Below, in pieces: positions 4,343 through 64,000 of a stretch of DNA of 64,000 nucleotides. Within the stretch, counting starts at the first letter, position 1; each line of letters opens with the position of its first letter. Made by a program: the position numbers and the translations under genes. The notes under the pieces were generated by a model, which was not told the origin of the DNA, ran no database searches, and saw only the letters and a list, made by a program, of their open reading frames with translations. Origin of the DNA: Owenia fusiformis (taxonomy: Eukaryota; Annelida; Polychaeta; Sabellida; Oweniidae); the NCBI GenBank assembly GCA_903813345.2, contig CAIIXF020000005.1, positions 3,356,356 through 3,420,355 of the forward strand. Direction: 5' to 3'.

Positions 4343-5410
4343 TCAGCATTCTGACATTTCCGTCGTAAATCCAGATTCTTCAAGAATTTTCGGTCGGTCG
4401 CAATGGAATAATTTAAGTAACATTTTTCTGAATTTTTTCCCGAGGAAACAATAAAGTACGAAATCTATAGCTGCGTTGACTGCGACTAGAAAGTTTGCAA
4501 TCGATAGGAAAATTACCCACCAATCAGGAACAACTGAGTGCTCATCAAATGTAGAGTCGATGAAGTTAACAATCAGAGCTGGCATGCCGCAAGCAAAGAA
4601 CACACATACAACTGAGAGTGCTACCATAGTGAGGCGATTTTCTCGTTTTTGGATGACGTTCATTTCTTTCTGCTGTTTCTGCATGCGCTTGAAGGCGACG
4701 ATGACCTTTGTGTTGGTGATAATCAGTAGAATCAGGGGCAGGCAGAAGAAAACAACGAAGTATAGAGCTGCTGAATAGAAGTACCTGTATACTATATTTG
4801 ATCCAAACTTTGTTTTGGGTATGAAGTGATCTTCCCGAAATGTTTCATATTCGAAACAACGCGGGATGTTGTAAAGGATAGATCCAATGACAATGAGAGA
4901 TGACGCAAGCCTTGCCTTGGATAAACTCGATAAAGAATAGGCTTTCAGAGGATAACACACTGCAATTGTACGCTCCATTGATATAGCAACCGTTAGCCAT
5001 ATAGTGCTCAATTGTGACATCATACCCATTGGCCATATCACCAGTGAGTTTACGATTTCCAGGTTGTTATAGTTTGCGCGTGGTGGTGGCTCACACATAT
5101 AGAGTAGACGAGTGAGAACCTCTGTGCAGAAAACACAGCCCAGAAATACAGAATCTGATACAGTGAGACTGCGTAATAAGTGGAACATTGGCGACCGACT
5201 TCTGTCTTGCCAAAGCACTATAAATGCAACAGTGTTACCAAACAATCCAAACAGACATACAACAAATAGAAATCCAATATTCACTACAATGTCAAAGGTC
5301 TGATCTGGTTGTTCTTCAGTAGCTGTGTTATTTGTCGCATTGAATACAGACATGTTTCCATCTGACACATTGTAATTCACAGTCTCTGCCATTTTTATAT
5401 TGATATACAC
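4343..5410 (-). CDS. Class A GPCR, FMRFamide-receptor-like peptide receptor
   Basis: A complete single-exon frame of 355 codons. The first ATG is at 5410; a second at codon 7 (MAETVNYN, 5392) is an equally plausible start. The extracellular N-terminus carries four N-glycosylation sequons (N14, N19, N24, N27). Seven hydrophobic segments lie near residues 41-66, 78-101, 121-149, 167-185, 211-236, 258-284 and 297-322. Class A landmarks are N59 (helix 1 GN), D86 (helix 2), E146-R147 (the DRY site, here ERT) and D316-x3-Y320 (the NPxxY site). The helix 3 run WLTVAISMERTIAVCYPLKA and the helix 4 end YNIPRCFE resemble the Drosophila FMRFamide receptor group, a family greatly expanded in lophotrochozoans. 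It should be a plasma-membrane neuropeptide receptor; the ligand cannot be read from sequence. The usual helix 3 cysteine (3.25) is absent, and the helix 6 CWxP is CGMP. Confidence 0.9.
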   Translation of the reverse strand: MYINIKMAETVNYNVSDGNMSVFNATNNTATEEQPDQTFDIVVNIGFLFVVCLFGLFGNTVAFIVLWQDRSRSPMFHLLRSLTVSDSVFLGCVFCTEVLTRLLYMCEPPPRANYNNLEIVNSLVIWPMGMMSQLSTIWLTVAISMERTIAVCYPLKAYSLSSLSKARLASSLIVIGSILYNIPRCFEYETFREDHFIPKTKFGSNIVYRYFYSAALYFVVFFCLPLILLIITNTKVIVAFKRMQKQQKEMNVIQKRENRLTMVALSVVCVFFACGMPALIVNFIDSTFDEHSVVPDWWVIFLSIANFLVAVNAAIDFVLYCFLGKKFRKMLLKLFHCDRPKILEESGFTTEMSEC

Positions 5411-8206
5411 AACTTGTAAAGTTGTCAGTAATTGACTTTGATATTTTCTGGTAATTAATGTTTAGTATGTGCAAATATTCTTCAAGCTCTACTTCAGTGT
5501 TTCTGCCACAGGTAAGAGATTGATTCTTCAGTCCTGATTCTTGTTATTTCAGTATCAAAACACACCCAATCATTATAAACTATTAAGTAATGGCAATGGT
5601 GTAATGTCAGATCATATTTCTATGACAGAATGATAGATTCATTTCAAATGGCGCTTAACCGATTAATCTTCCTAATATGTTAGTGGTTATTTGAATTTCA
5701 AAGAATTGTACTTCCCTGCTATACTACAATTAATGCTAGTTCGTGATGAATTTGTTCAGTGCTTGCATTATGTTGTTCTATTTATTACAACTTACTTTCA
5801 GCAGAGATTGAAATATGTAATCCAAGTAAAATTCCTACTTATTTTTTGTAATAGAATCCTTATGACGTCTGTTTATACATACAATAGTCAGATGTTTTAA
5901 TTCCCTTTATTTCATTTGGCCATTCTCTGATTTAATCAGAAAGTTTATTTTATCAATAAAGAGATAATGAATATTATTTTATGAATTATTTGATATTTCA
6001 GTCCTTTATTTGCTTACAGCTGCAGTGTTTTCTTTAAGTATCTCTAATTTCCGTTCAGTATTATTTCCTTTCTATTTGGTCCAAATTGTAATTCCAATAC
6101 TTACATAATTTGTGTTGATAAATTGTCTGGCTTATTAATATGATTTTGAAAAAGCTGAATTATTTTATTAAAATGCTCTTGGTGATTCGATAATACTCTT
6201 TCACGTTTGATTTCCTCTGAGAGAATTGTTTCTTTCAAAATGACAGTAAAATCCTGCTTATTCTATTGGTCCTCGCTCTTTATATTCTGATGATTGATTA
6301 GAATGGTATCCACTATAGATAAAATGATAGATGGACAAGGTTTAAGATTCGTGATCTAATCTAGTAATATTATGTTTTCATATCCAATTTTCTGTCTCTC
6401 ATGCAGAATGGAGAGTCTCCCTTATATGATTTATTATTTTGGGTATTTTTTCTTACATCCGATTCACATCCAAAACACTGATTAAATGTGTATAGAGCAG
6501 AAATAATGCCATATGCCGTATGATCAGTGCTTCTTCAAACCGATGAGTTGCAGCTTCTCTATTTTATTCTGAAAATACAAAATGTTTATTTCATAAATTA
6601 TATATGCACAAGTTGTATATACAGATATATCTGAGCTGAGATCAAATTAAGTTTTATGTTAGCTACAGAAAAAATTGATTTTTTAAATTAATAAATACAG
6701 CATTAACAATCATTAATAAAATCAAAAAGTTGAAGGTCATTTAGATATAGGGAATGGCAAAAATATTATATTTAATTTGATCTACCATTATATAGACCCA
6801 GAAACCTTCACTATTATTATATTATCATGTATATATATATAACTGCTATTAATGCCAGAAACCTTCACTATTATAATATTATCATGTATATATACAACGG
6901 CTATTAATGCCAACATGGCACAGCCATTAAAGTACCCTTGTACAAGGTGTATCATCTAAATTACTGTTAAGGGAATATATAGCGTTTCAAATAAAGAAAG
7001 GTTTAAATAGATATTTATCATTTTATATATACATGAAGTGTACAACATCAGAAATAGCAGTATTTCATCCTAGTTCTAAAGTTAGTGTTTTATCTTAATA
7101 TTTCTGTTTTATTTTTAACTCTGACAGCCTCTCTTTTGTAATCAGAGAAACCTTATGTTCTGTTGGCATATTAGGAAATTTTGATTTATAGTCTGAATAC
7201 GTAATGAAATTTTAACAAACAAGTTAGCAATTATTGGGGTTTCTACTACAATATTGTACTCTCAACCATGTGATACATAACATTCCCTTATAAGGTATTC
7301 CACAGGATATATACCAATACTATGAGGAATTCATGGGATCTGGGTACAGAATGCATTTTTGATGACTTGTTTGTTAATTCGAAGTATTATTAACTCATTC
7401 TTTATATGATTTGAGATCTTAGACACAAAATATTTGAACTAGTAAACGTATGTGTAATATATGTGACATCATATGTTATGGTAAATAGTGATAGAATGAA
7501 AAATAAAAGATAAAATGAAGCAAAATAAAACAGAAATACATTTACATATCAGTGATTCTCCAGTGGGGCCCCCCTTGAACTCATAGTTGAAAATAGCTTT
7601 GAAAAGAATATCTTTGCTTTGGCAAAACAAGGCCCGCCATCTTGAAAATGAATAAACTTTTGCAAGAACCACTGCCCATGGATTAAAGATCTTACTGTTA
7701 CCATTATACTTGCACAACATGTGGAAATTCGACATATCCCTAATCCAATGATATTGATATGTACATTTGTACAGATTTGATATTGTTTACAGGGTACATT
7801 CAAGTAATATACATTCATTCTTATGATATATAACTTACATAACTAGAATACATCACTAAACATCGACTTAAGCCATCTTTTCTGAAAACACCAGTGTTTG
7901 TAAAAATGACTTACCTGTAGAGTGTGACAAGTTCCAGATTGAATAAAGTACTTAAAGAACTATATTAAATTCACTGTTTTCTTAACTGAAAAGTTACAGA
8001 AAAAGGGTTTAATACGGATGAGGATTATAGCTATTGGCCCTTTAATGTTTTTCTTTTGTAAATTATTATTACATACTGTAATATGATACAATGCTGGGAA
8101 GGCTTAGGTAGAAATTATATTACTGCATTCCTTTCATTAACATTAGTATATTTTGTATATAATTAATATTAATTCAGGTTTCTGGTTTTATGTTTTATTT
8201 ATTATT
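5411..8206. other. Upstream flank of the GPCR and intergenic DNA
   Basis: No exon is recognised. An imperfect direct duplication of about 62 bp lies at about 6795-6915 (CAGAAACCTTCACTATTA repeated). Short open frames at 5691-5900 and 7469-7818 show no family resemblance and look accidental. The GPCR promoter should lie just above 5411, but no TATA or GC box stands out. Confidence 0.45.
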
Positions 8207-26845: not shown

Positions 26846-26856
26846 TATCTTAACTA

Positions 26857-29800
26857 AGGTTTAACATCAGATAATGCCATATCATTCCCAAAGTTTAACA
26901 TCAAATAATGCCATATCATTCCCAAGGTTTAACATCAAATGAGCCATATTATTCCCAAGGTTTATCATCAAATAATGCCATATCATTCCCAAGGTTTATC
27001 ATCAAATAATACCATATCATTCCCAAAGTTTATGATCAAATAATGCCATATCATTCCCAAGGTTTAACATCAAATAATGCCATATCATTCCCAAGGTTTA
27101 ACATCAAATAATGCCATATCATTCCAAATGGTTATCATCAAATAATGCCATATCATTCCCAAAGTTTAACATCAAATAATGCCATATCATTCCCATGGTT
27201 TAACATCAAATAATGTCATATCATTCCCAAGGTTTATCATCAAATAATGCCATATCATTCCCAAGGTTTATCATCAAATAATGCCATATCATTTCCAAGG
27301 TTTATCATCAAATAATGCCGTATCATTCCCAAGGTTTATCATCAAATAATTCCATATCATTTCCAAGGCTAATCATCAAATAATGTCATATCATTACCAA
27401 GGTTTATCATCAAATAATGCCATATCATTCCCAAAGTTTAACATCAAATAATGCCATATCATTCCCATGGTTTCACATCAAATAATACCATATCATTTCC
27501 AAGGTTTAACATCAAATAATGCCATATCATTCCCAAGGTTTATCATCAAATAATGCCATATCATTCCCAAGGTTTATCATCAAATAATGCCGTATCATTC
27601 CCAAGGTTTATCATCAAATAATTCCATATCAATTCCAAGGCTAATCATCAAATAATGTCATATCATTCCCAAGGTTTATCATCAAATAATGCCATATCAT
27701 TCCCAAAGTTTAACATCAAATAATGCCATATCATTCCCATGGTTTCACATCAAATAATACCATATCATTTCCAAGGTTTAACATCAAATAATGCCATATC
27801 ATTCCCAAGGTTTAGCATCAAATAATGCCATATCATTCCAAAAGTTTAACATCAAATAATGCCATGTCATTCCCAAGGTTTATCATCAAATAATGCCATA
27901 TCATTCCCAAAGTTTAACATCAAATAATGCCATATCATTCCCATGGTTTAACATCAAATAATGCCATATCATTCCCAAGGTTTATCATCAAATAATGCCA
28001 TATCATTCCCAAGGTTTAACATTAAATAATGCTATATCATTCCCAAAGTTTAACATCAAATAATGCCATATCATTCCCAAGGTTTATCATCAAATAATAC
28101 CATATCATTTCCAAGGTTTAACATCAAATAATGCCATATCATTCCGAAGGCTTATCATCAAATAATGCCATATCATTCCAAAGGTTTATCATCAAATAAT
28201 GCCATATCATTCCCAAGGTTTAACATCAAATAATGCCATATCATTTCCAAGGTTTAACATCAAATAATGCCATATCATTCCCATGGTTTAACATCAAATA
28301 ATACCATATCATTCCCAAGGTTTATCATCAAATAATGCCATATCATTCCCAATGTTTATCATCAAATAATGCCATATCATTCCCATGGTTTAACATCAAA
28401 TAATACCATATCATTTCCAAGGTTTAACATCAAATAATGCCATATCATTCTCATGGTTTAACATCAAATAATGCCATATCATTCCCATGGTTTATCATCA
28501 AATAATGCCATATCATTCCCAAGGTTTAACATCAAATAATGCCATATCATTCCCAAGGTTTATCATCAAATAATGCCATATCATTCCCAATGTTTATCAT
28601 CAAATAATGCCATATCATTCCCATGGTTTAACATCAAATAATACCATATCATTTCCAAGGTTTAACATCAAATAATGCCATATCATTCTCATGGTTTAAC
28701 ATCAAATAATGCCATATCATTCCCAAGGTTTAACATCAAATAATGCCATATCATTCCAAATGGTTATCATCAAATAATGCCATATCATTCCCAAAGTTTA
28801 ACATCAAATAATGCCATATCATTCCCATGGTTTAACATCAAATAATGTCATATCATTCCCAAGGTTTATCATCAAATAATGCCATATCATTCCCAAGGTT
28901 TATCATCAAATAATGCCATATCATTTCCAAGGTTTATCATCAAATAATGCCGTATCATTCCCAAGGTTTATCATCAAATAATTCCATATCATTTCCAAGG
29001 CTAATCATCAAATAATGTCATATCATTACCAAGGTTTATCATCAAATAATGCCATATCATTCCCAAAGTTTAACATCAAATAATGCCATATCATTCCCAT
29101 GGTTTCACATCAAATAATACCATATCATTTCCAAGGTTTAACATCAAATAATGCCATATCATTCCCAAGGTTTATCATCAAATAATGCCATATCATTCCC
29201 AAGGTTTATCATCATATAATGCCGTATCATTCCCAAGGTTTATCATCAAATAATTCCATATCAATTCCAAGGCTAATCATCAAATAATGTCATATCATTC
29301 CCAAGGTTTATCATCAAATAATGCCATATCATTCCCAAAGTTTAACATCAAATAATGCCATATCATTCCCATGGTTTCACATCAAATAATACCATATCAT
29401 TTCCAAGGTTTAACATCAAATAATGCCATATCATTCCCAAGGTTTAGCATCAAATAATGCCATATCATTCCAAAAGTTTAACATCAAATAATGCCATGTC
29501 ATTCCCAAGGTTTATCATCAAATAATGCCATATCATTCCCAAAGTTTAACATCAAATAATGCCATATCATTCCCATGGTTTCACATCAAATAATACCATA
29601 TCATTTCCAAGGTTTAACATCAAATAATGCCATATCATTCCCAAGGTTTATCATCAAATAATGCCATATCATTCCCAAGGTTTAACATTAAATAATGCTA
29701 TATCATTCCCAAAGTTTAACATCAAATAATGCCATATCATTCCCAAGGTTTATCATCAAATAATACCATATCATTTCCAAGGTTTAACATCAAATAATGC

Positions 29801-31027
29801 CATATCATTCCGAAGGCTTATCATCAAATAATGCCATATCATTCCAAAGGTTTATCATCAAATAATGCCATATCATTCCCAAGGTTTAACATCAAATAAT
29901 GCCATATCATTTCCAAGGTTTAACATCAAATAATGCCATATCATTCCCATGGTTTAACATCAAATAATACCATATCATTCCCAAGGTTTATCATCAAATA
30001 ATGCCATATCATTCCCAATGTTTATCATCAAATAATGCCATATCATTCCCATGGTTTAACATCAAATAATACCATATCATTTCCAAGGTTTAACATCAAA
30101 TAATGCCATATCATTCTCATGGTTTAACATCAAATAATGCCATATCATTCCCATGGTTTATCATCAAATAATGCCATATCATTCCAAAGGTTTAACATCA
30201 AATAATGCCATATCATTCCCAAGGTTTATCATCAAATAATGCCATATCATTCCCATGGTTTAACATCAAATAATACCATATCATTTCCAAGGTTTAACAT
30301 CAAATAATGCCATATCATTTCCAAGGTTTAACATTAAATAATGCCATATCATTCCCATGTTTAACATCAAATAATGCCATATCATTTCCAAGGTTTAACA
30401 TTAAATAATGCCATATCATTCCCATGTTTAACATCAAATAATGCCATATCATTCCCATGGTTTATCATCAAATAATGCCATATCATTCCCAAGGTCTATC
30501 ATCAAATAATGCCATATCATTCCCAAGGTTTATCATCAAATAATGCCATATCATTCCCAAGGTTTATCATCAAATAATGCCATATCATTCCCAAGGTTTA
30601 TCATCAAATAATGCCATATCATTCCCAAGGCTTATCATCAAATAATGCCATATCATTCCCAAGGTTTATCATCAAATAATGCCATATCATTCCCAAGGTT
30701 TATCATCAAATAATGCCATATCATTCCCAAGGTTTATCATCAAATAATGCCGTATCATTCCCAAGGTTTAACATCAAATAATGCCATATCATTCCCAAGG
30801 TTTATCATCAAATAATGCACTATCATTCCCAAGGTTTATCATCAAATAATGCCATATCATTCCCAAGGTTTATCATCAAATAATGCCATATCATTCCCAA
30901 GGCTTATCATCAAATAATGCCATATCATTCCAAAGGTTTATCATCAAATAATGCCATATCATTCCCAAGGTTTAACATCAAATAATGCCATATCATTCCC
31001 AAGGTTCATCATCAAATAATGCCATAT
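26857..31027. repeat. 34-bp minisatellite, about 123 copies, with higher-order duplication
   Basis: The unit is TTTAACATCAAATAATGCCA followed by TATCATTCCCAAGG. Recurrent variants are TTTATC, GGTTTCAC, ATACCA, CCGTATC and GGCTAATC. The order of variants repeats over long distances. TCATTCCAAATGG at 27119 and 28751, and AAGGCTAATC at 27365 and 28997, are both exactly 1632 bp (48 units) apart. Further right the offset becomes 1666 (CCGAAGG marker, about 28141 and 29807), one unit more. The array is noncoding. Confidence 0.97.
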
Positions 31028-31215
31028 CTTTGTTCATTTGGTTAAAGCTGACCTGGTTATATCCCAAGAACAATAGATAATTAGAGAGCAGTTGACTCTG
31101 CACCTATAAACCATTGATGAACTGATTTTGAATTGCTATTAGAAGAACTTAATGAAGGTAATTCTTTTACAATAATAACAGGAATTACAGGTATGTAAAG
31201 AGATCTTGAATTCAA

Positions 31216-44236: not shown

Positions 44237-44368
44237 AATTCAGACGATGATGATACAGATAGTGATGAGGATGATGCAATGGAAGATGATGCAGCTGAAT
44301 CACAAGATGACAGTGAAGAAGAGCAGGATGAGGAACAGGAAGATGATGAAGATGAGGAATTTGACACA
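44237..44368 (+). CDS. TSR1 exon a (acidic segment)
   Basis: The exon starts after TTCGTAG and ends before GTGAGT. It encodes 44 residues, mostly D and E ([13 protein letters not shown]...DEDEEFDT), matching the acidic linker ahead of the C-terminal domains. Both ends are phase 0 in the joined frame. Confidence 0.85.
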
Positions 44369-47300: not shown

Positions 47301-50300
47301 GGTACGATATTGTACATTCTATGTTCTTCGGTGTCATGTGGTACAATATTGCACTCAAGGTTCCTGTGTGTCTCTAGTCTTGGTACTATATGACACAATG
47401 TGTTCTTATGTGTCTTAGTACTTTATTACATACTCTATGTTAATGTACAGGGTGACCCAAAAAAAATGCAACCCTCCATTTCTCGAATATTTTTTCTTAA
47501 ATGGAGGTTAATTGCTCTGAAATTTGGCACACAAAGACTTCATTCAATGTGGGATCCTCTGGCAAAGTTTCAATAATCATAGTCTTATATTGATAGAGTT
47601 ATGGTCATTCCAAAATATGCTCCAAATGTCGTCCATTTCTAATGTTAGGTTTTCGGATGAGTCACATTCCCTTCTTTCTGAACATGTAAACTCAAGAAAT
47701 AATGTGTTCTGGGATAACAAATTCCAGATAAAGTGCTTCACAGGCCCCTACATTCTGTTACATGCACAGTGGGCTGCCAATTTCCAAACATGAAATCATC
47801 AGCCCCTTTTGGTTTGAGGTTGATAATGTTACTGTTAACACACAGCGCATTATTGGCGTTCCCAGGAAGTTCTAGGCAGTTCTAGAGTGACATAGAGGCT
47901 TCAATAGACAAGAACAGAGGTTCTAGAAGGATGGAGCTACTCCTCATACTTCTAATGATAGCATAACCTGGCTCACTAGTCATTTCTATGAGAAGATTAT
48001 CTCTCCTAGGACGGAGGACCCATGGTCATCCCACAGTCTTGATCTCAATGCCCCTGACTTCTATATGCAGGGTTATTTAAAGGATAATGTGTATGAAAAT
48101 AACCCTAACGCAATTGTAGAACTCCAATAAGCAATGGCTGCAAAAATTTGAGCCATACCCATGGGGAAGAATGCATACGTGTTATGAACAGTTTTCCTTG
48201 AACATTGCAAGTTTGTTTTCAGCGAAATTAACAACATCTGGAGCATATTTTGAAACAACCATAACTCTATCAATATAAGACTATGATTATTAAAACTTTG
48301 CTAGAGGATCCCACATAGAATGAAGTCCTTGTGTGCCAAATCTCAGAGCAATTTATCACCATTTAAGAAAAATATTCGAGAAATGGAGGGTTGCATTTTT
48401 TTTGGGTCACCCTGTATGTCTCTTGGTGCTATATTGCATATATGATGTTCTAGTGAGTATCTTGGTGCTATATTGCACACTCTACGTTAATGTATGTCCC
48501 TTGGTGCTATATTGTACACTCTATGTTAATGTATATCTCTTGGTGCTATATTGCACACTCTATGTTAATGTATGACTCTTGGTGCTATATTACACACTCT
48601 ATGTTAATGTATGTCTCTTGGTGCTATATTGCACACTCTATGTTAATGTATGTCCCTTGGTGTTATATTGTACACTCTATATTAATGTATGTCTCTTGGT
48701 GCTATATTGCACACTCTATGTTAATGTATGTCTCTTGGTGCTATATTGCACACTCTATGTTAATGTATGTCTCTTGGTGCTATATTCCACACTCTATGTT
48801 AATGTATGTCTCTTGGTGCTATATTGCACACTCTATGTTAATGTGTGTCCCTTGGTGCTATATTGCACACTCTATGTTAATGTATGTCTCTTGGTGCTAT
48901 ATTGCACACTCTATGTTAATGTAAGTCTCTTGGTGCTATATTCCACACTCTATGTTAATGTACGTCTCTTGGTGCTATATTGCACACTCTATGTTAATGT
49001 ATGTCTCTTGGTGCTATATTGCACACTCTATGTTAATCTATGTCCCTTGGTGCTATATTGTACACTCTATGTTAATGTATGTCTCTTGGTGCTATATTGC
49101 ATATATGATGTTCTAGTGAGTTTCTTGGTGCTATATTGCACACTCTATGTTAATGTATGTCTGTTTGTTGCTATATTGTACACTCTATGTTAATGTAAGT
49201 CTCTTGGTGCTATATTCCACACTCTATGTTAATGTATGTCTCTTGGTGCTATATTGCACACTTCATGTTGCACAATCTATGTTTTGTGTGTCTTTTGATG
49301 CTATTCTATAAGACTACACACTCCATGGTCTTGTGTAGCTACAAATCAATCTTACATGGAGTACATCTCAAATATTCATAGCCCTATTTGCTGATAAGGG
49401 CTTAGACAAGATAACATTTAGAGATGACAGCAATTTGTTTAGGACTCTTATTTTTCAATCAAGCAGCAATACAAAGAACAGTTTGCCGATGAGGAACATT
49501 TAAAATATGATTCCCTTGATAGCTACAGCTAGAAAATACAAACCTTAAGTTATGAAACTAAACTTAAAGGTGAAACAATCTTTTGTCTTTAAACAAACTA
49601 TTTTAATTGCTGAAAAGAGATCTATGTTCTTAATTTGATCATCTAAATAGTTTAATACTATTCTACAAAATTGTTTTTAAACATATTAGTTTGTTGTGTT
49701 TTTGCATCCATGTGTAAAGAAAACGTTAAGACTGAAAATATTGAAACATAATTGATACAGTACAAAATGTTGATTTATCTCCCTGGACTGCGTTATTGAT
49801 CAAAAAGTGATTGTCCAATAAAAATAGTATTAATAAATTATTAGATAAATCCTCGCTAACCTCTCGTTTCATTTATTTGAAAAGATGACTATTAATGTAG
49901 GATGGTTAGAAACTTTATGACTCTTGGAATTACTCTTCACTCATCCAATATTACTTGATATGGCAAGAGGATTTTATGAAGATTGGTTTTGATGTTGAAG
50001 TCAGTACAACCTAAAAGTACAACCTAAAAGTACAACCTAAAAGTACTAACTAAAATGTTCACGTTGTTTTGTTATTTATTATCGTCATGGACACTCTGCA
50101 TTTTGTATTTTATTTCGTAGATGTATGTTGATTATATTCATCAAATAATTTATTTCATAAATAAAGGTTGCTGCTTGGTTATCACTTTCTTTCAAAATAA
50201 GAGTCTCAATTTAAATATAGTTTGATTACTTAATTAGGAATACTTCATAATCCTCATTATATTTTAAGCATCATTTTTTAGTTATGCTATACTAATTGAT

Positions 50301-53300
50301 ATTACATATGTGTCACATTGTGTTTGCATGCATGTTCTTGTGCTTGACTTGGTGCTCTGTTGCATACTCTGTGTTTATATATATTTTTATATTGCAGGCT
50401 TGCCAAGTACAAGGATGCAAGGCAGGACCAGATGTTTCCAGATGAAGTTGACACCCCAATAGACACGCCTGCTAGGGTCAGATTTCAAAGGTACAAATTC
50501 TCTAAATCTTGAATAGCTTGAGTTATTGCATAACCAAGGGTTGACATTATTGACACTGGAGTCGTCAAAGCATTTTTCAGATTTTGCAGAATGAATTTTA
50601 CTCAATTCAAGGTGAATGAAATATTTTTTGAAAGGAATTGCTTGCACATAAAAGGTCTATATTGCACTGGGTTAAATATCGAAATATTTTGCTCAAGTAA
50701 AATGTTTTCTATGGATCTTTATACATGTGGGTTGGGGATAAAATTCCAATAGAGGAGTTGCTTTATGGAGGAATAAATATATATGTTTTAGATTTAGAGG
50801 ATTAAAAAGCTTCAGGACGTCAGTGTGGGATCCAAAAGAGAACCTACCGACAGACTATGCTAGGATATTCCAGTTTGAAAATTTCACTGCAACCAAGAAG
50901 AGGATTCTAAAAGAAGACAGAGATTCTGGAGCTATGGTATAGAAATAATACAAAATCATCATTTTATTTGTGGAGTACAGAGGCTAGAGTTTATAGATAT
51001 TATACCCATAAACCTTAAGCAGGCCCGTAGCCAGGGGGGTTCGAGCGATCTTTCAAAATTATGCAGTTTTTCACCATTCTGAGCACTTTTTAAGTGCTTT
51101 TGGCCATTTTTGGACCAAAATTGTCAGATGTGAACCCCCCCTGGAATTTTTCAAAAAGCGACCCCCCTTGGCAAATCCTGGCTACGGGCCTGTTATGAAT
51201 AGTATAATCTCATAAGTGTTAATAATAATAATGGTCAATTTTCTGTTCAGTAATGATGTCATGGTCTCATTTGATAACATTTGTATCGCAGTCTTACCAT
51301 ATTTTGAATGCATTTTATTTTTTGGGAAATGTCCATTTTTTCTACAAGGTGCTTACCATTGGCTCCTAAGTTGTTTGCTAAGAATGTGTGATCAAAGAAA
51401 TGTTTTGAACTATGTACATTTACTAAAATTAAAATGTGATGTTATGTTGTCATTTTAGCCTGGCTGGTATGTGAGGTTACATATAGAGGGAGTACCTGCA
51501 GAATATATGGGTTTGTTATATATTTTCTTCACACATAATTCTTCTGAATGAAATTACTACTGATTTTTTAGAATTTTACACAATATTATTTCTGGTGTTA
51601 GTGGTGACATCTATCTACTTCCTTTTTAATAAAAACATATTTGTGGATTTTGAATTTTTTTCTTGATGTTGTTGCTAGCGTAGCGTCACATCTACATCTA
51701 ATTAACTTAATTTATTCAAGACTCATTGATCATAAGGAGTCTTGAGGACAGAAACTAATTACCCTGTGGTTGATAACCACATGTATTCCTAACCCCTCAT
51801 ATTTCCATTACAGCCAGTCGCTCCAGTGACAGCCCTGCAGTTGTGTATGGATTACTACCTCATGAGCAAAAGATGTCAGTCATGCATTTTATTGTTAAGC
51901 GTCACCATAGCTACAATGAACCAATCAAATCCAAGGAAAGGATGATCTTCCATGTAGGATTTAGACGCTTCTCAGCTTGTCCCATATATTCAGAGCATAC
52001 TAATGGTAGTAAGCATAAGGTAGGTGATCAAGTGTTTGTGATGTAACTTGAGTCAATTTATTTTGGAATTTTGAAATCATTGAAATATTTGGATATTTGA
52101 ATGTATACAATCAGTGACATTTTCTCATTAGGGTACTCGATTCCAATGTTACTTGATTTGGTCAAAATATCTCAATGCTTCAACCTGCAAATAAAAGTGA
52201 TTTTCAATTTTTTTTAAAAGGTGCACCACCTGGTTGGTCTAAATGCTTGGTAGGTCAATGCTAAATGATCAAACATGAAAAGTAATTGTTAATTGAAATG
52301 CTTTATTTCCAGTTTGATAGGTGGTTGCCCAATGAAGGGATGGCTGTTGCCACTGTGTTCGCTCCAATCACTTTCCCATCTGCCCCGGTGCTAATGTTCA
52401 AAGCCAATAGTGATGGTAAGTATAAACCTATAGCCTATTACGTATAAATCTATAGCCTATTACCTTGAATTATATCTTGGATGTTGCCACTGTGTTCGCT
52501 CCAATCACTTTCTTATCTGCCCCGGTGCTAATGTTCAAAGCCAATAGTGATGGTAAGTATAAATCTATAGCCTATTACCTTGAATTATATCTTGGATGTT
52601 GCCACTGTGTTTGCGCCAATCACTTTCCCATCTGCCCCGGTGCTAATGTTCAAAGCCAATAGTGATGGTAAGTATAAATCTATAGCCTATTACCTTGAAT
52701 TATATCTTGGATGTTGCCACTGTGTTTGCTCCAATTGCTTTCCCATCTGCCCCGGTGCTAATGTTCAAAGCCAATAGTGATGGTAAGTATAAATCTATAG
52801 CCTATTACCTTGAATTATATCCTGATTCTTGGCTTATAGAACAACTTCTAGCCTACTTCTTTCTTCAAACATTTATATATACCTTCATATAATTGCAGGT
52901 AGCCAAGATATGGTAGCCACAGGCAGTGTTCTTTCTGTGAATCCAGACCGCATCATCTCCAAGCGTCTCATCCTCAGTGGCCACCCATTCAAGATTAACA
53001 AGAGGACAGCCACTGTTAGATATATGTTCTTCAACAGAGGTGAAAATTCACTTTATATACATTTGCCTATTTAATCATTAAAACATTCTTAATGTAATCA
53101 AGATACTTATATCATATTAGAATTGAAACTTTTTTGTGGATGGTGTTTGGCAGTCGGTGTCTGTAACAAATGGCAGGTGATGACATTGTCCATTATAATG
53201 CCTTGTTTGTTTATCTTATGAGAAAAAACTTGACAAAATTTTTATTTATGTTTCAGAGGACATACTTTGGTTCAAACCAGTTGAGCTACGCACCAAGCAT

Positions 53301-55993
53301 GGTAGAAGGGGTCATATCAAGATGCCACTAGGTAAATATAAATGTAGTATAGAAGGGGTCATATCAAGATGCCACTAGGTAAATATAAATGTAGTATAGA
53401 AGGGGTCATATCAAGATGCCACTAGGTAAATATAAATGTAGTATAGAAGGGGTCATATCAAGATGCCACTAGGTAAATATAAATGTTGTATAGAAGGGGT
53501 CATATCAAGATGCCACTAGGTAACTATAAATGTAGTATAGAAGGGGTCATATCAAGATGCCACTAGGTAAATATAAATGTAGTATAGAAGGGGTCATATC
53601 AAGATGCCGCTAGGTAAATATAAATGTAGTAGAAGGGGTCATATCAAGATGCCACTAGGTAAATATAAATGTTGTATAGAAGGGGTCATATCAAGATGCC
53701 ACTAGGTAACTATAAATGTAGTATAGAAGGGGTCATATCAAGATGCCACTAGGTAAATATAAATGTTGTAGAAGGGGTCATATCAAGATGCCACTAGGTA
53801 AATATAAATATAGTATAGAAGGGGTCATATCAAGATGCCACTAGGTAAATATAAATGTAGTATAGAAGGGGTCATATCAAGATGCCACTAGGTAAATATA
53901 AATGTTGTATAGAAGGGGTCATATCAAGATGCCACTAGGTAACTATAAATGTAGTATAGAAGGGGTCATATCAAGATGCCACTAGGTAAATATAAATGTA
54001 GTATAGAAGGGGTCATATCAAGATGCCGCTAGGTAAATATAAATGTAGTAGAAGGGGTCATATCAAGATGCCACTAGGTAAATATAAATGTTGTATAGAA
54101 GGGGTCATATCAAGATGCCACTAGGTAACTATAAATGTAGTATAGAAGGGGTCATATCAAGATGCCACTAGGTAAATATAAATGTTGTAGAAGGGGTCAT
54201 ATCAAGATGCCACTAGGTAAATATAAATATAGTATAGAAGGGGTCATATCAAGATGCCACTAGGTAAATATAAATGTAGTATAGAAGGGGTCATATCAAG
54301 ATGCCACTAGGTAAATATAAATGTAGTATAGAAGGGGTCATATCAAGATGCCGCTAGGTAAATATAAATGTAGTAGAAGGGGTCATATCAAGATGCCACT
54401 AGGTAAATATAAATGTTGTATAGAAGGGGTCATATCAAGATGCCACTAGGTAACTATAAATGTAGTATAGAAGGGGTCATATCAAGATGCCACTAGGTAA
54501 ATATAAATGTTGTAGAAGGGGTCATATCAAGATGCCACTAGGTAAATATAAATATAGTATAGAAGGGGTCATATCAAGATGCCACTAGGTAAATATAAAT
54601 GTTGTATAGAAGGGGTCATATCAAGATGCCACTAGGTAACTATAAATGTAGTATAGAAGGGGTCATATCAAGATGCCACTAGGTAAATATAAATGTTGTA
54701 GAAGGGGTCATATCAAGATGCCACTAGGTAAATATAAATATAGTATAGAAGGGGTCATATCAAGATGCCACTAGGTAAATATAAATGTTGTATAGAAGGG
54801 GTCATATCAAGATGCCACTGGGTAAATATAAATGAAGTATAGAAGGGGTCATATCAAGATGCCACTAGGTAAATATAAATGTAGTATAGAATGGGTCATA
54901 TCAAGATGCCACTAGGTAAATATAAATGTAGTATAGAATGGGTCATATCAAGATGCCACTAGGTAAATATAAATGTTGTATAGAAGGGGTCATATCAAGA
55001 TGCCACTAGGTAAATATAAATGAAGTATAGAAGGGGTCATATCAAGATGCCACTAGGTAAATATAAATGAAGTATAGAAGGGGTCATATCAAGATGCCAC
55101 TAGGTAAATATAAATGTTGTATAGAAGGGGTCATATCAAGATGCCACTAGGTAAATATAAATGTTGTAAAGAAGGGGTCATATCAAGATGCCACTAGGTA
55201 AATATAAATGTTGTATAGAAGGGGTCATATCAAGATGCCACTAGGTAAATATAAATGTAGTATAGAATGGGTCATATCAAGATGCCACTAGGTAAATATA
55301 AATGAAGTATAGAAGGGGTCATATCAAGATGCCACTAGGTAAATATAAATGAAGTATAGAAGGGGTCATATCAAGATGCCACTAGGTAAATATAAATGTA
55401 GTATAGAAGGGGTCATATCAAGATGCCACTAGGTAAATATAAATGTTGTATAGAAGGGGTCATATCAAGATGCCACTAGGTAAATATAAATGTTGTATAG
55501 AAGGGGTCATATCAAGATGCCACTAGGTAAATATAAATGTTGTATAGAAGGGGTCATATCAAGATGCCACTAGGTAAATATAAATGTTGTATAGAAGGGG
55601 TCATATCAAGATGCCACTAGGTAAATATAAATGTTGTAGAAGGGCTAGAAGGGAAAAATTATCTTTCACCAAATTATTATTTTTATATTTAAACCGCATC
55701 TTTGTAAATGTAGCACTAGCTAGTGAAAAATGTCTTGATTTGATATTTGTTTAAATTAATATTTGAGATTTTGATAGTATTTTATTTCGTTTTTCTTCTT
55801 TTTTTCAGGTACACATGGACACATGAAGTGTGTGTTTGATGGTCAAATGAAGTCTCAGGATACTGTTTTAATGAATCTCTATAAACGTATGTATCCAAAA
55901 TGGACTTATGAAGCTAGAGTATCGCCACCTTCATCAGTTGGGCAAGGACAAGACGAAATGGACACTGAAGTTCTGAATGAATTATTTGATTGA
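44237..55993 (+). CDS. Pre-rRNA-processing protein TSR1, C-terminal half (10 exons)
   Basis: Joined exons give 398 codons plus stop, with every intron phase closing: 44237-44368, 46062-46126, 50398-50490, 50792-50936, 51459-51510, 51814-52019, 52313-52415, 52899-53039, 53257-53331 and 55809-55993. The protein matches the C-terminal half of TSR1 (about 800 residues in human): an acidic stretch, [89 protein letters not shown] and THGHMKC...[15 protein letters not shown]1 is a nucleolar/cytoplasmic 40S assembly factor of the BMS1/TSR1 family, shaped like a translational GTPase but not catalytic. This half covers the C-terminal RIBIOP-type domains. The N-terminal half (with the AARP2CN region) was not found. 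A possible poly(A) signal AATAAA lies near 56112. Confidence 0.93.
44415..44690. repeat. About 37-40-bp tandem repeat in a TSR1 intron, about 7 copies
   Basis: The unit is GTTTGTCAACAGAATTCTTA then TGCAAATTAATGGATTAT, with diverged final copies. It begins about 45 bp after the donor of TSR1 exon a. Each unit contains TTTGTCAACAG/AATTC, which looks like a 3' splice site and ends with the same AG/AATTC as the true acceptor of exon a; this may be coincidence. Confidence 0.85.
45217..45379. mobile_element. MITE with CAGG(C/T)C(C/T)GTAGC(C/T)AGG ends, diverged copy
   Basis: The left end is CAGGTCTGTAGCTAGG and the right end CTGGCTATGGGCAAG, an inverted match. The interior (GCAGTTTTTCACCATTCTGA, then GCACTTTT) is shared with the better copy at 51020-51192. 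It lies in a TSR1 intron. Superfamily unknown. Confidence 0.6.
46062..46126 (+). CDS. TSR1 exon b
   Basis: The acceptor is TATATGCCTTGTAG and the donor GTGAGT. It encodes [20 protein letters not shown] and the first two bases of a Met codon completed by the next exon. Confidence 0.88.
46127..47279. other. TSR1 intron, 5' part
   Basis: Intronic by position. No exon, RNA gene or recognised element was seen. The rest of this 4.3-kb intron holds the 39-bp array and its inserted transposon. Confidence 0.6.
47280..49330. repeat. 39-bp minisatellite in a TSR1 intron, split by a transposon
   Basis: The unit is TATGTCTCTTGGTGCTATAT then TGCACACTCTATGTTAATG. Well-conserved copies (about 21) lie at 48417-49260, with diverged copies at 47280-47447 and 49260-49330. 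A degenerate copy (CTTGGTGCTCTGTTGCATAC) lies near 50350, just before the acceptor of the next exon. A marker variant with TTCTAGTGAG occurs 663 bp (17 units) apart at about 48450 and 49113, showing internal duplication. Open frames across it exist because 39 is a multiple of 3. Confidence 0.95.
47448..48414 (+). mobile_element. IS630/Tc1-type transposon copy, DD41D-like, decayed
   Basis: The ends are CAGGGTGACCCAAAAAAAAT and its complement, with about 190 bp of inverted repeat arms. The TA target is duplicated (47446-47447 and 48415-48416). Transposase remnants on the plus strand show all three acid blocks: FSDES near 47655, KDGATPHTS near 47925, and [20 protein letters not shown] near 48045. 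By my count 41 residues separate the second and third Asp, suggesting the DD41D group. The frame is broken by several stops and the N-terminal DNA-binding region is missing, so the element is dead. It sits inside the 39-bp array. Confidence 0.88.
49331..50397. other. TSR1 intron, 3' part
   Basis: AT-rich intron ending at the acceptor TTTTATATTGCAG (50397). It contains a short triplication of AAAAGTACAACCT near 50010-50045. Nothing else is recognised. Confidence 0.6.
50398..50490 (+). CDS. TSR1 exon c
   Basis: It encodes [20 protein letters not shown] and [10 protein letters not shown], the strongly conserved start of the TSR1 C-terminal region. Acceptor TTGCAG, donor AAAG/GTACAA. Confidence 0.93.
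50792..50936 (+). CDS. TSR1 exon d
   Basis: It encodes [20 protein letters not shown], then [20 protein letters not shown], one of the most conserved blocks of the family. Acceptor ATGTTTTAG, donor GCTATG/GTATAG. Confidence 0.94.
51020..51192. mobile_element. 173-bp MITE with perfect CAGGCCCGTAGCCAGG inverted ends
   Basis: The left end CAGGCCCGTAGCCAGG and the right end CCTGGCTACGGGCCTG are exact complements over 16 bp. The interior is GGGGTTCGAGC, CAGTTTTTCACCATTCTGAG and a C-rich tract. No clear target duplication is visible. A second, diverged copy lies at 45217-45379 in another intron of the same gene. Confidence 0.75.
51459..51510 (+). CDS. TSR1 exon e
   Basis: A 52-bp exon encoding [17 protein letters not shown] plus one base. 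It corresponds to the GWYV-LH---VP segment of TSR1. Acceptor TGTCATTTTAG, donor ATGG/GTTTGT. Confidence 0.88.
51814..52019 (+). CDS. TSR1 exon f
   Basis: It encodes [20 protein letters not shown] and continues through [20 protein letters not shown] to KHK. These match the [10 protein letters not shown] and IFHCGFRRF blocks of TSR1. Acceptor TTCCATTACAG, donor AAG/GTAGGT. Confidence 0.94.
52313..52415 (+). CDS. TSR1 exon g
   Basis: It encodes [20 protein letters not shown] and [14 protein letters not shown]. Acceptor TTTATTTCCAG, donor GATG/GTAAGT. Its 3' three-quarters and donor are repeated three more times downstream (separate entry). Only this copy has the upstream acceptor. Confidence 0.93.
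52340..52825 (+). repeat. 115-bp tandem repeat made of TSR1 exon g end plus its 5' splice site, 4 copies
   Basis: The unit runs from about the GTTGCCACTGTGTT(C/T)GC of exon g through TCAAAGCCAATAGTGATG, the donor GTAAGTATAAA, and about 45 bp of intron (TATAGCCTATTACCTTGAAT). Copy 1 is the real exon. Donors of copies 2-4 lie near 52550, 52666 and 52781. The extra copies have no acceptor before them, so they should be intronic. The exon part stays almost unchanged among copies (for example TTCTTATCTG against TTCCCATCTG), so the duplications look recent. Confidence 0.93.
52899..53039 (+). CDS. TSR1 exon h
   Basis: It encodes [20 protein letters not shown], then [20 protein letters not shown] and YMFFNR. 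These match the GHPFKI and [10 protein letters not shown] blocks. Acceptor CATATAATTGCAG, donor AGAG/GTGAAA. Confidence 0.94.
53129..53215 (+). repeat. Dispersed repeat family, partial copy in a TSR1 intron
   Basis: TTTTTTGTGGATGGTGTTTG, then GCAGTCGGTGTCTGTAACAA, matches the middle of the copies at 22674 and 19389. The palindromic head is missing. Confidence 0.55.
53257..53331 (+). CDS. TSR1 exon i
   Basis: It encodes [20 protein letters not shown] and IKMPLG; the [10 protein letters not shown] and GRRGHIK blocks are family hallmarks. Acceptor TTTATGTTTCAG, donor CTAG/GTAAAT. The last 29 bases of this exon and its donor are the founder of the 47-bp array that follows. Confidence 0.94.
   Translation, partial: RTYFGSNQLSYAPSMVEGVISRCH
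53303..55640 (+). repeat. 47-bp minisatellite made of TSR1 exon i end plus its 5' splice site, about 50 copies
   Basis: The unit is TAGAAGGGGTCATATCAAGA then TGCCACTAG/GTAAATATAAATGTAGTA. The first 29 bases are the final codons of exon i (R-R-G-H-I-K-M-P-L), and the remainder starts with the functional donor GTAAAT. The first unit straddles the real exon-intron border (53331). About 50 further units fill the intron. Common variants are GTAACTATAAATG, TGCCGCTAGG, GTTGTA and a 45-bp form lacking one TA. Nearly every copy keeps AG/GTAAAT or AG/GTAACT, so the intron holds about 50 donor-like sites. Confidence 0.97.
55809..55993 (+). CDS. TSR1 terminal exon j
   Basis: It encodes [20 protein letters not shown] and [17 protein letters not shown], then a short variable tail ending ELFD before TGA at 55991-55993. 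Acceptor CTTCTTTTTTTCAG. The last conserved motif (LYKR-FPKWTY) sits near the C-terminus, as in other TSR1 proteins. Confidence 0.95.
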
Positions 55994-58523: not shown

Positions 58524-60402
58524 CTGAAGTAGATATAAGGTTTACATTTAATCACAAGATTCTTTCAGTTGACCACACATACATTTAACTTGTTCTGATT
58601 ATATCAGTATATGAGAGAAAATTGAGTTTCTTATAGAGCTACTTCAAAATATTAAGATACTATTAAATCAAGCTTCAAAACATAATAGGTGGTCCTCCAT
58701 GCAATTCTGACATTACAATAGACGTCGCAATTTGAAGAAGGCATTTATCTATAAGAAAGAGAGAAAAATTGCTGACTCCATTGACACTTCTTAGATGATG
58801 AAATGGGGCCACCCACCCACTAGATTTAATTGATTATGAATACACTGTATGAGACTTCTAAAATAATAGATTCTGAAAAATGGCATAGTATTACACGAGA
58901 ACAAACAATGTGCAAATAACATACTATATTTCTCATCATTCTCAAATCCCAGTGATGTCTTTGCTTTCTTCATTTCAACCCTGAGTTCCTTTGCCAGCAG
59001 CTTGGCTGTGTCTTCATCAGCTCCAGTATCAGTGACAGCTGAGTTTACTACTTCATTGATGTCATCTTTACTGAGGTGACCAAGAGTAGCTAACTGAGCT
59101 AGGAAAGTCTTCTTCTGAGCCTGGAACATACACACAAATTCAATGTGACATACACATAAATTCAATGTGACAAACACACAAATTCAAAGTGACATACACA
59201 CAAATTCAATGTGACATTTTCTCAAATGTAATGTGACACATACTACAAACTGAATTTTCAGTCTTATTTGAATTTTCCTCAGAGACCCCTCATCGAATAA
59301 TATCAATAAAAAATGATCACAATATAGCACCCAAGGACGCGATAAAAATCATTCAGTAGCACCTAACTAATCATTAACTGGATGAGGACTTACATCTAGT
59401 TCAGCTTGGAGCTCATGTTCTAGCTCCCTGTTGAGCTCATCTTTATGTTTCTGCATTTCATATTTCATCTCAGTCTCCAAGTCTCCCATGGCTTTCTTGT
59501 GTCTTTGGTCCAATAAGTGCTGGCTCAATATAGATGTCGCCACTCTGCAAACACAAACAGCCAACTTGTATTTATTATGTCTATGACTACATCTCATGAT
59601 GATCATCAATGTGTTGTCATCATACTTTGGTGCATTATCCAAACATCCCTGTTGAAATAGCCAACTTGCATTTATTATGTCTATGACTACATCTCATGAT
59701 GATCATCAATGTGTTGTCATCATACTTTGGTGCATTATCCAAACATCCCTGTTGAACTCTACTGGAGTCATTTGTGGATCAAGTGTCCTTATATGAGAGA
59801 GTTGGCGTTATATAATACCTCATGAGCTATTACAGTGGCAGATATATGAGAGCGACTTAATTTATCCTCATCTTACGGGAGCTACAGTAGCACAATTGTG
59901 CGAAATGAACAAAAAACGTCCTTATCTTGTTTGCTATTAATTGTATCGATTGAAAACACTCACCCTGCTCCTCTGCGTTTCTGTGCCTCCCAATCTTCCC
60001 TGGCTTCTTCTTCCAACTGAACTTCAACTTCCCTAAAGATATTTTCAGATAATTCTTTATTGTGAAAACCTAAATGTCTGCATGTCTTGAAATATCTATG
60101 ACTAAAATGTAGAGAATGTGTATTCCCGAGAGAAGCAATCAGAGGTATATGGCAATCAGACTGCTTTATTTATTTCCTCTATTTTAATAATACTCTCTTA
60201 GGTAATAGGTTATTACAAATTTTCACCTTTCTCGTTTCAATTTTTTCTGCTCAATCCTCTCCCTGAGAATCTGTTCCTGCCGTTGTTTCTGAGTGTTCAA
60301 ATGTTCAGTGAGTTGCTCTGTTTGATTCTCATGTTGCTCTAGGAGCAAATCAACCTTGTTACCCTTCACCCCTCCCTCTGCAACCTTGCTAGCCATCTTG
60401 TC
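58390..60402 (-). CDS. Coiled-coil protein, last five exons, not identified
   Basis: Minus-strand exons 60402-60227, 60032-59964, 59544-59394, 59120-58925 and 58523-58390 have GT/AG borders and closing phases. They join to 241 codons and a TAA stop. The protein is highly charged and mostly helical: MASKVAEGG...LLLEQHENQTEQLTEHLNTQ, QEQILRERIEQKKLKRERE, VQLEEEAREDWEAQKRR, SILSQHLLDQRHKKAMGDLE, KHKDELNRELEHELQAELDA, then a globular-looking FLAQLATLGHLSKDDINEVV. The acidic tail EAFDEEEED is followed by a basic end, FRKKKKG. Long heptad-like E/K/Q/L runs suggest a coiled coil; an EVC2/limbin-like ciliary protein is only a guess. Upstream exons lie beyond 60402, perhaps outside the window. It converges on TSR1. 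Confidence 0.75.
58925..59120 (-). CDS. Coiled-coil gene, penultimate exon
   Basis: Acceptor TGTATGTTCCAG and donor ATATA/GTATGT. It encodes AQKKTFLAQLATLGHLSKDD, then INEVVNSAVTDTGADEDTAK and VEMKKAKTSLGF. A 22-bp tandem repeat (ACACAAATTCAATGTGACAT, 59130-59237) lies immediately upstream of the acceptor. Confidence 0.75.
59130..59237. repeat. 22-bp tandem repeat, about 5 copies, intronic
   Basis: The unit is AAATTCAATGTGACATACAC plus two bases. It sits against the acceptor side of the penultimate coiled-coil exon. Confidence 0.85.
59394..59544 (-). CDS. Coiled-coil gene exon (SILSQHLLDQ...)
   Basis: Acceptor GTGTTTGCAG, donor CTAGAT/GTAAGT. It encodes VATSILSQHLLDQRHKKAMG, then DLETEMKYEMQKHKDELNRE and LEHELQAELD, a strongly charged helix. 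Confidence 0.78.
59550..59757. repeat. About 100-bp tandem duplication in an intron
   Basis: The segment CCAACTTG(T/C)ATTTATTATG to AAACATCCCTGTTGAA occurs twice in tandem (about 59560-59655 and 59661-59756) with a single base difference over most of it, so it is a recent duplication. Confidence 0.9.
59964..60032 (-). CDS. Coiled-coil gene exon (EVEVQLEEEAREDW...)
   Basis: Acceptor ATATCTTTAG, donor GCAGG/GTGAGT. The 69-bp exon encodes EVEVQLEEEAREDWEAQKRR plus GA. Confidence 0.75.
60227..60402 (-). CDS. Coiled-coil gene exon (first in this window)
   Basis: Acceptor ATGAAATTGCAG, donor GAAAG/GTGAAA. It encodes DKMASKVAEGGVKGNKVDLL, then LEQHENQTEQLTEHLNTQKQ and RQEQILRERIEQKKLKRE. The short minisatellite at 60407-60797 adjoins the acceptor. 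Confidence 0.75.
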
Positions 60403-61015: not shown

Positions 61016-64000
61016 GATCCACTAAACATCCATACATGTGGATGGCATGCATATATCGATCTACTATACATTCATATATGTGGATGGCATGCATATATCG
61101 ATCTACTATACATTCATATATGTGGATAGTATGCATATATGGATCTACTATACATTCATATATGTGGATAGTGTGCATATATGGATCTACTATACATTCA
61201 TATATGTGGATAGTGTGCATATATGGATCTACTATACATTCATATATGTGGATAGTGTGCATATATGGATCTACTATACATTCATATATGTGGATAGTGT
61301 GCATGTAAGGATCTACTATACATTCATATATGTGGATAGTATGCATATATGGATCTACTATACATTCATATATGTGGATAGTGTGCATATATGGATCTAC
61401 TATACATTCATATATGTGGATAGTGTGCATATATGGATCTACTATACATTCATATATGTGGATAGTGTGCATATATGGATCTACTATACATACTTATATG
61501 TGGATAGTATGCATATATGGATCTACTATACATTCATATATGTGGATAGTATGCATATATGGATCTACTATACATTCATATATGTGGATAGTGTGCATAT
61601 ATGGATCTACTATACATTCATATATGTGGATAGTATGCATATATGGATCTACTATACATTCATATATGTGGATAGTATGCATATATGGATCTACTATACA
61701 TTCATATATGTGGATAGTGTGCATATATGGATCTACTATACATTCATATATGTGGATAGTATGCATATATGGATCTACTATACATTCATATATGTGGATA
61801 GTGTGCATATATGGATCTACTATACATTCATATATGTGGATAGTATGCATATATGGATCTACTATACATTCATATATGTGGATAGTATGCATATATGGAT
61901 CTACTATACATTCATATATGTGGATAGTGTGCATATATGGATCTACTATACATTCATATATGTGGATAGTGTGCATATATGGATCTACTATACATTCATA
62001 TATGTGGATAGTGTGCATGTATGGATCTACTATACATTCATATATGTGGATAGTATGCATATATGGATCTACTATACATTCATATATGTGGATAGTGTGC
62101 ATATATGGATCTACTATACATTCATATATGTGGATAGTATGCATATATGGATCTACTATACATTCATATATGTGGATAGTGTGCATATGTGGATCTACTA
62201 TACATTCATATATGTGGATAGTGTGCATATATGGATCTACTATACATTCATATATGTGGATAGTATGCATATATGGATCTACTATACATTCATATATGTG
62301 GATAGTATGCATATATGGATCTACTATACATTCATATATGTGGATAGTGTGCATATGTGGATCTACTATACATTCATATATGTGGATAGTATGCATATAT
62401 GGATCTACTATACATTCATATATGTGGATAGTGTGCATATGTGGATCTACTATACATTCATATATGTGGATAGTATGCATATATGGATCTACTATACATT
62501 CATATATGTGGATGGCATGCATATATGGATCTACTATACATTCATATATGTGGATAGTATGCATATATGGATCTAATATACATTCATTATTTCATATATG
62601 TGAATAGTGTGCATATATGGATCTACTATACATTCATATATGTGGATAGTGTGCATATATGGATCTACTATACATTCATATATGTGGATAGTGTGCATAT
62701 GTGGATCTACTATACATTCATATATGTGGATAGTATGCATATATGGATCTACTATACATTCATATATGTGGATAGTGTGCATATGTGGATCTACTATACA
62801 TTCATATATGTGGATAGTATGCATATATGGATCTACTATACATTCATATATGTGGATGGCATGCATATATGGATCTACTATACATTCATATATGTGGATA
62901 GTGTGCATATGTGGATCTACTATACTTTCATATATGTGGATAGTATGCATATATGGATCTACTATACATTCATATATGTGGATGGCATGCATATATGGAT
63001 CTACTATACATTCATATATGTAGATAATATGCATATATCGATCTACTATACATTCATATATGTTGATAGTATGCATATATGGATCTACAAAACATTCATA
63101 TATGTGGATAGTATGCATATATGGATCTACTATACATTCATATATGTGGATAGTGTGCATATATGGATCTACTATACATTCATATATGTGGATAGTATGC
63201 ATATATGGATCTACTATACATTCATATATGTGGATAGTGTGCATATGTGGATCTACTATACATTCATATATGTGGATAGTGTGCATATATGGATCTACTA
63301 TACATTCATATATGTTGATAGTATGCATATATGGATCTACTATACATTCATATATGTGGATAGTATGCATATATGGATCTACTATACATTCATATATGTG
63401 GATAGTGTGCATATATGGATCTACTATACATTCATATATGTGGATAGTGTGCATATATGGATCTACTATACATTCATATATGTGGATAGTGTGCATGTAA
63501 GGATCTACTATACATTCATATATGTGGATAGTATGCATATATGGATCTACTATACATTCATATATGTGGATAGTGTGCATATATGGATCTACTATACATT
63601 CATATATGTGGATAGTGTGCATATATGGATCTACTATACATTCATATATGTGGATAGTGTGCATATATGGATCTACTATACATACTTATATGTGGATAGT
63701 ATGCATATATGGATCTACTATACATTCATATATGTGGATAGTATGCATATATGGATCTACTATACATTCATATATGTGGATAGTGTGCATATATGGATCT
63801 ACTATACATTCATATATGTGGATAGTATGCATATATGGATCTACTATACATTCATATATGTGGATAGTATGCATATATGGATCTACTATACATTCATATA
63901 TGTGGATAGTGTGCATATATGGATCTACTATACATTCATATATGTGGATAGTATGCATATATGGATCTACTATACATTCATATATGTGGATAGTGTGCAT
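61016..64000. repeat. 42-bp satellite, about 71 copies, runs off the window
   Basis: The unit is ATATATGGATCTACTATACA then TTCATATATGTGGATAGTGT plus GC. Variants are GTATGC, GGCATGC and CATATGTGG. A rare pair of markers (GCATGTAAGG at 61301 and 63493; TACTTATATG at 61491 and 63683) recurs 2192 bp apart. That is 52 units plus the 8 extra bases found near 62585, so a long segment has been duplicated. Because 42 is a multiple of 3, both strands read open for hundreds of codons (13-15 residue repeats such as YTFIYVDSVHIW). I do not call these genes. Confidence 0.97.

Follow-up and report, generated by a model that had tools for sequence, protein, structure and literature searches.

A probable mirage minisatellite with fifty splice donors at an exon border of TSR1 in the annelid Owenia fusiformis

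Introduction

Mirages are minisatellite-like duplications of intron/exon boundaries that were described in amphioxus, where units of 10-160 bp repeat either the 5' or the 3' border (PMC3087553). According to the accessible part of that report, one globin gene carries six and three units in two haplotypes, instability was also found at Adh3, and the results of reverse transcription PCR suggest that regular splicing is undisturbed by the mirages. The available portion of a second paper adds a mirage in lancelet troponin C, together with imperfect ones in PGBD5 (PMC3902484). Here we describe such an array in a stretch of 64,000 nucleotides (the window; C5:3356356-3420355 of the 498-Mb genome of the annelid Owenia fusiformis, assembly GCA_903813345.2), where one intron of a TSR1 gene is filled with tandem copies of the end of the preceding exon and its donor (array 1). 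Positions without a contig prefix are positions of the window.

Other systems in which repeats and splice sites meet have been reported, and we draw on the accessible parts of these sources. In human UBC, AGGT sites in a tandem array serve as donor as well as acceptor (PMC10809524). In human genes, novel introns may result from variable repeats located at exon-intron boundaries (PMC2812944), and an intron of potato RdRp was gained by tandem duplication (PMC4974935). Earthworm metallothionein genes have intronic minisatellites, and one clone carries duplications of exon 4 that are absent from the transcript (PMC12783039). The literature that we searched, from which subscription papers were missing, names no mirages outside lancelets, which is weak evidence of novelty.

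Results

Array 1 occupies positions 53303-55638 of the forward strand, where Tandem Repeats Finder (TRF) reports a period of 47, 50.0 copies, 95% matches and a score of 4273. Its unit consists of the last 29 bases of the penultimate TSR1 exon (53257-53331, +) followed by 18 intron bases, and the first unit is the true exon border, at 53331/53332. Cutting the array at its donors gives 50 donors from 53332 to 55621, with spacings of 47 bp (42 intervals) and 45 bp (seven intervals), and the GT is intact in all 50. An earlier note on this DNA, made by a model from the letters, had described about 50 copies of an exon end and its donor, a unit of 29 exon and about 18 intron bases starting at the real border, and donors that are nearly all intact; the repeat search and the cutting at donors bear out each of these points. 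Forty of the donors read ATGCCACTAG/GTAAAT and are identical across 17 bases, six read ATGCCACTAG/GTAACT, three ATGCCGCTAG/GTAAAT and one ATGCCACTGG/GTAAAT (the slash marks the border), and AG stands directly before the donor at 49/50 borders (AG/GT). It is a fair inference from these letters that the spliceosome would meet 50 competing donors in this intron.

The 49 intervals fall into 11 types, in the order BBBACGHACEFBACGHACEFBGHACEFACEF…, with repetition of blocks (ACGHACEF and similar) in approximately the first three fifths and an irregular order toward the 3' end. At the edges, the first three intervals are identical (BBB), as are the last four (AAAA), and the internal blocks recur. Over the parts that can be aligned in all units, 3/26 exon positions and one of the first 12 intron positions are variable; the most variable part of the unit is the short stretch preceding the next exon part. 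Because few sites vary among the units, the intact GTs say little about selection. The array makes up 2307 of the 2477 bases of its intron, and the remaining 170 bases (55639-55808, +), with the acceptor TTTTTTTCAG, lead to the last TSR1 exon (55809-55993, +; THGHMKC… to the stop TGA). Searching the species' own genome at the DNA level with the first 298 bases returned nine matches, all within array 1; this search skips very common words, and the presence of the unit elsewhere is not disproved by it. With matches confined to the array in that search, we rejected the idea that a mobile element had spread the unit.

Five joined exons match PF04950 (RIBIOP_C) in a profile search (E 2e-95). Against PDB, they match a human TSR1 chain with E 4.3e-93 and the best BMS1 chain with 2e-24. 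Judged by its predicted protein, the gene carries the C-terminal TSR1/BMS1 domain and is nearest to TSR1, the name that the earlier note had given it. When the reading frames are joined, donor 1 of array 1 gives the full TSR1 protein, and the alignment with human TSR1 is ungapped over the junction between this donor and the last exon. Each of donors 2-50 (49/49) reads 15 codons, of which the first is the junction glycine, and then meets TAG. The earlier note had stated that later donors add 47 or 45 bases per unit and shift the frame; the frames read for all 49 agree with a shift, which the 47-nt units cause. That note had placed the stop in GTAAATATAAATGTAG, which is out of frame; it proves instead to be the TAG of CACTAG that ends the exon part of the next unit. 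For 47 of these 49 donors the stop lies at least 50 nt before the last junction, and for donors 2 and 3 the distance is 0 and 47 nt.

TSR1 has a second donor array, missing from the earlier note's list and two introns upstream of the first. Array 2 (52416-52821, +, from TRF, which gives 52442-52821, and donor positions) follows the exon at 52313-52415 (+; …FKANSDG), whose 3' end seeded it, and is built from copies of that exon's own end plus donor. The donors lie at 52416, 52553, 52668 and 52783; the units measure about 115 bp, and the first interval, of 137 bp, contains a 22-bp duplication (TRF 52420-52463). Its borders read ATG/GT, not AG/GT. The first donor leads to a protein matching human TSR1 and the other three lead to stops, and donors 1-4 span 367 of the 483 bases of their intron. 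The next exon (52899-53039, +; GSQDMVATG…YMFFNR) is followed by the intron 53040-53256, between the two arrayed introns, in which TRF found no tandem array. Donor arrays are present in two of the last three TSR1 introns.

We looked for similar arrays in the rest of the genome in two ways. Eight Pfam families were searched genome-wide and gave at least 52, 92, 60, 88, 144, 144, 106 and 73 rows, at least 759 in total (lower bounds, as best candidates only were scored). The rows were inspected by eye for short regular spacing, a screen that detects only units containing about 35 codons of a family. It yielded three exon arrays, 3/737 rows with 22 further copies set aside. A kinesin gene (L069, C2:23266359-23269174) has 18 copies of 159 bp, of which only the last is a full exon. 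A gene of the SNF2 family, ISWI-like by eye (L070, C2:4915297-4916006), has about 4.8 copies of 137 bp, seen as five rows spaced by about 140 bp. A dynein heavy chain gene (L077, C12:24488800-24493800, reverse strand) has two copies of 154 bp at about 3800-4130 of that locus, with about 120 exon bases per unit. Reading of the sequences shows that in all three the unit is an acceptor plus the start of an exon, and that the last copy alone continues to a whole exon with a donor. The two-copy dynein case resembles the earliest stage in the making of an array of this kind.

The second survey examined with TRF the flanks of 104 exon matches (60 DEAD/myosin loci, five of them inspected more closely, 33 dynein and 11 more). 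Among these flanks we found one clear border array, again over an acceptor of the dynein heavy chain gene (L077, 1105-1482), built of 37-bp units that number about 10.5 and each hold about 10 bases of exon. The survey is a lower bound, since TRF misses two-copy cases, including the 154-bp dynein case. Neither the Pfam rows nor the TRF flanks contained a clear donor array; the one candidate over a donor, at L058, is a weak repeat (2.2 copies, 17 bp). TSR1 was picked for having a donor array and stands outside any rate. Altogether there are six border arrays, two over donors (both in TSR1) and four over acceptors, and both 5' and 3' exon borders are affected. Their unit lengths of 47/45, about 115 (first interval 137), 159, 137, 37 and 154 bp fall within the published mirage range of 10-160 bp.

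Several candidates were set aside. A kinase pair at C10:2256896-2257205 (L071, C10:2256500-2257800) is a diverged pair of whole exons; the two copies, GSK3-like by eye, each have splice signals and look mutually exclusive. About 11 myosin head rows at C9:37986009-37994334 are irregularly spaced with differing scores and were read as alternative exons, and one and the same dynein segment occurs in three copies at L075 and in two at L076, as whole diverged exons that also look like alternative ones. The exon-adjacent arrays at L045, L027, L066 and L075 (6209-6423) begin past the donor and are intronic, as is the uncounted array at L081 (2556-2584). Those at window 59126-59238 (- strand) and at L080 (3382-3468, reverse strand) end a few bases before the acceptor, with the AG excluded, and were left uncounted as borderline relatives. 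The TRF matches at L012, L015 and L016 fall in long open frames.

Of the window, 24% is taken up by tandem arrays; in four other sets of stretches the share is 5-11%. By rough comparison, border arrays are rarer than this coverage, which would be expected should most events of this kind do harm or be short-lived.

The upstream part of the gene may lie well outside the window. The AARP2CN domain is common to TSR1 and BMS1, and its profile matches at two places in the genome, one of which (C5:3301891-3302016) precedes the window by about 54 kb in the same orientation, with TSR1-like exons readable by eye nearby. If this part and the exons of the window belong together, TSR1 would span about 110 kb. 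From about C5:3304200 to an acidic exon at window position 44237 (up to about 96 kb, of which the 30 kb at C5:3326356-3356355 were unread), no TSR1 exon was recognised by eye. At about 47449-48416, within a TSR1 intron, lies an element just under 1 kb long that is bounded by inverted ends (CAGGGTGACCC…) and by eye resembles the remnant of a DNA transposon.

Elsewhere in the window, there are very long minisatellites at 26856-31028 (34 bp x 123) and 61016-64000 (42 bp x 71, running up to the last base of the window), and an open frame of 372 amino acids at 4346-5461 (- strand) that by eye resembles a rhodopsin-type receptor. In the genome at large, Eryth_link_C, the family of the linkers of annelid giant haemoglobins, matches above its curated cut-off in 3/3 rows, all on C6, in keeping with an annelid. 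A search for mitochondrial COX1 gave no match.

Discussion

The anatomy of array 1, the reading frames behind its donors and the mirror-image arrays at acceptors are best accounted for by a mirage minisatellite, that is, a tandem repeat at a splice border. We think it likely that the array is neutral, with no function of its own, and that it is tolerated through exon definition. With 5-24% of the bases in the five sets of stretches taken up by tandem arrays, some borders should be hit. The founding step would be a small duplication across the real exon-intron border. For array 1, a 9-bp direct repeat, GTAGAAGGG, is found once in the exon (53302-53310, +) and once in the intron just past the last donor (55636-55644, +), and the first duplication probably occurred between these two halves of the presumed seed. 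In the founder the copies would have been 45 nt apart, and therefore the unit would have been of 45 bp; we infer that the 47-bp units arose by a later insertion of TA. Slippage and unequal exchange of blocks may then have made the array grow.

How a working gene could live with 49 decoys might be explained by the side from which splice sites are paired. Under exon definition, the acceptor before 53257 would be paired across the exon with the closest donor, which is donor 1, giving an exon of 75 nt, and the 49 decoy donors, left inside the intron, would lack a good acceptor to pair with. In the acceptor arrays (kinesin, SNF2 family and dynein twice), the last acceptor, nearest to the exon's own donor, would give the full exon. 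Pairing of nearest sites across the exon would thus select the first donor or the last acceptor, the right choice in 6/6 cases, whereas pairing across the intron would select the last donor or the first acceptor, the wrong choice in 6/6. Tolerance of mirages would accordingly be expected chiefly under exon definition.

Certain points count against this interpretation. The splicing of TSR1 is here predicted from the DNA. That the true site always gives the shortest exon is no test of exon definition, because the geometry of a border duplication in a working gene forces it. Moreover, if the arrays are removed, about 170 nt plus the intron part of one unit are left of the array 1 intron and about 116 nt of the array 2 intron; both would have been short before the arrays, and intron definition could once have applied to them. 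The published boundary pattern, in which edge units stay outside homogenisation, is not clear in array 1, where the first three intervals are identical. Finally, the occurrence of donor arrays in two of the last three introns might point to something specific to TSR1.

One alternative would be regulation. Some transcripts might take donors 2-50, meet a premature stop and decay, and the length of the array would then tune TSR1 output. The reading frames would suit such a decoy system, considering that every later donor (49/49) meets one stop, which in 47 cases precedes the last junction by at least 50 nt, and that GT is kept in all 50 donors. However, intact GTs are expected with so few variable sites, and similar arrays in unrelated genes and at acceptors fit a general mutational process. 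Furthermore, amphioxus mirages were reported without aberrant mRNA, as far as the accessible parts of those papers go (PMC3087553, PMC3902484). We consider regulation by decay unlikely. A more explicit and improbable form of the idea takes the array as a ladder of decoy donors that bind U1; how many of them there are would determine the share of TSR1 pre-mRNA in a form subject to nonsense-mediated decay. Were this true, an essential ribosome-assembly gene would be tuned by an unstable minisatellite, and mirages elsewhere in the genome would constitute a reservoir of heritable variation in splice strength.

Alternatively, the donors could double as acceptors, so that pieces of the array are spliced out step by step; an identical donor would be restored each time, and the mRNA would stay as it was. 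Nearly all units between donors start with GT and end with AG, AG precedes 49/50 donors, and the AGGT sites of the human UBC array are a precedent (PMC10809524; accessible part). However, the 20 bases ahead of each AG (…GTCATATCAAGATGCCACTAG) by eye lack the pyrimidine richness of the true acceptors, and array 2 reads ATG/GT. A length of 45-47 nt is also very short for an intron, which weighs further against stepwise removal, and we regard it as unlikely. An assembly artefact, whether a spurious array or an inflated number of units, is very improbable: copy number in tandem arrays is indeed prone to error, but the eleven unit types follow an ordered block pattern, the window has no N and lies in a contig of 42 Mb, and the same kind of arrays recurs in other genes.

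Mirages were described in lancelets, and six of them in an annelid suggest that minisatellite-rich, exon-defined genomes can both make and tolerate such arrays. Introns may also grow by amplifying the edge of their own exon, as the 2307 of 2477 intron bases in array 1 illustrate. Array 1 is also a ready experiment in splice-site choice: its 50 donors have nearly the same local sequence and differ chiefly in their place along the array, and expression of the gene is probably ubiquitous. On the practical side, splice-site decoys of this type can mislead automated gene models.

Comparison with known systems places the locus most closely beside the amphioxus mirages. The earthworm metallothionein genes share with TSR1 that they are annelid genes with intronic minisatellites; the accessible part of that source does not state whether these span a splice border, so an annelid relative of mirages may have been published there already (PMC12783039). 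To judge by the available parts of the reports on intron gain (PMC4974935, PMC2812944), tandem duplication there likewise copies exonic bases together with splice signals, but the TSR1 array lengthens an existing intron. Like human UBC, array 1 has tandem units bounded by AGGT (49/50); unlike it, in which the units are coding and in frame (228 nt), the 47-nt units of TSR1 shift the frame and the later donors lead to a stop, and array 2 lacks AG/GT. With the mirages of Adh3, the globins BflGb6/BflGb9 and troponin C the locus shares a tandem border duplication, splice signals in many units and a correct protein that requires the outermost site only. The earlier note had called the array unusual: it does belong to a rarely described kind, but one published in amphioxus, in so far as those reports are accessible (PMC3087553, PMC3902484), and with five further cases in this genome, one of them in TSR1 itself. 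The array is thus a member of a known but little-known class, the mirage minisatellites, probably in a phylum where they had not been named before. Unlike the amphioxus cases, it occurs in a different animal group, it is long, with 50 copies against six and three in the BflGb6 haplotypes, and it shares its gene with a second donor array.

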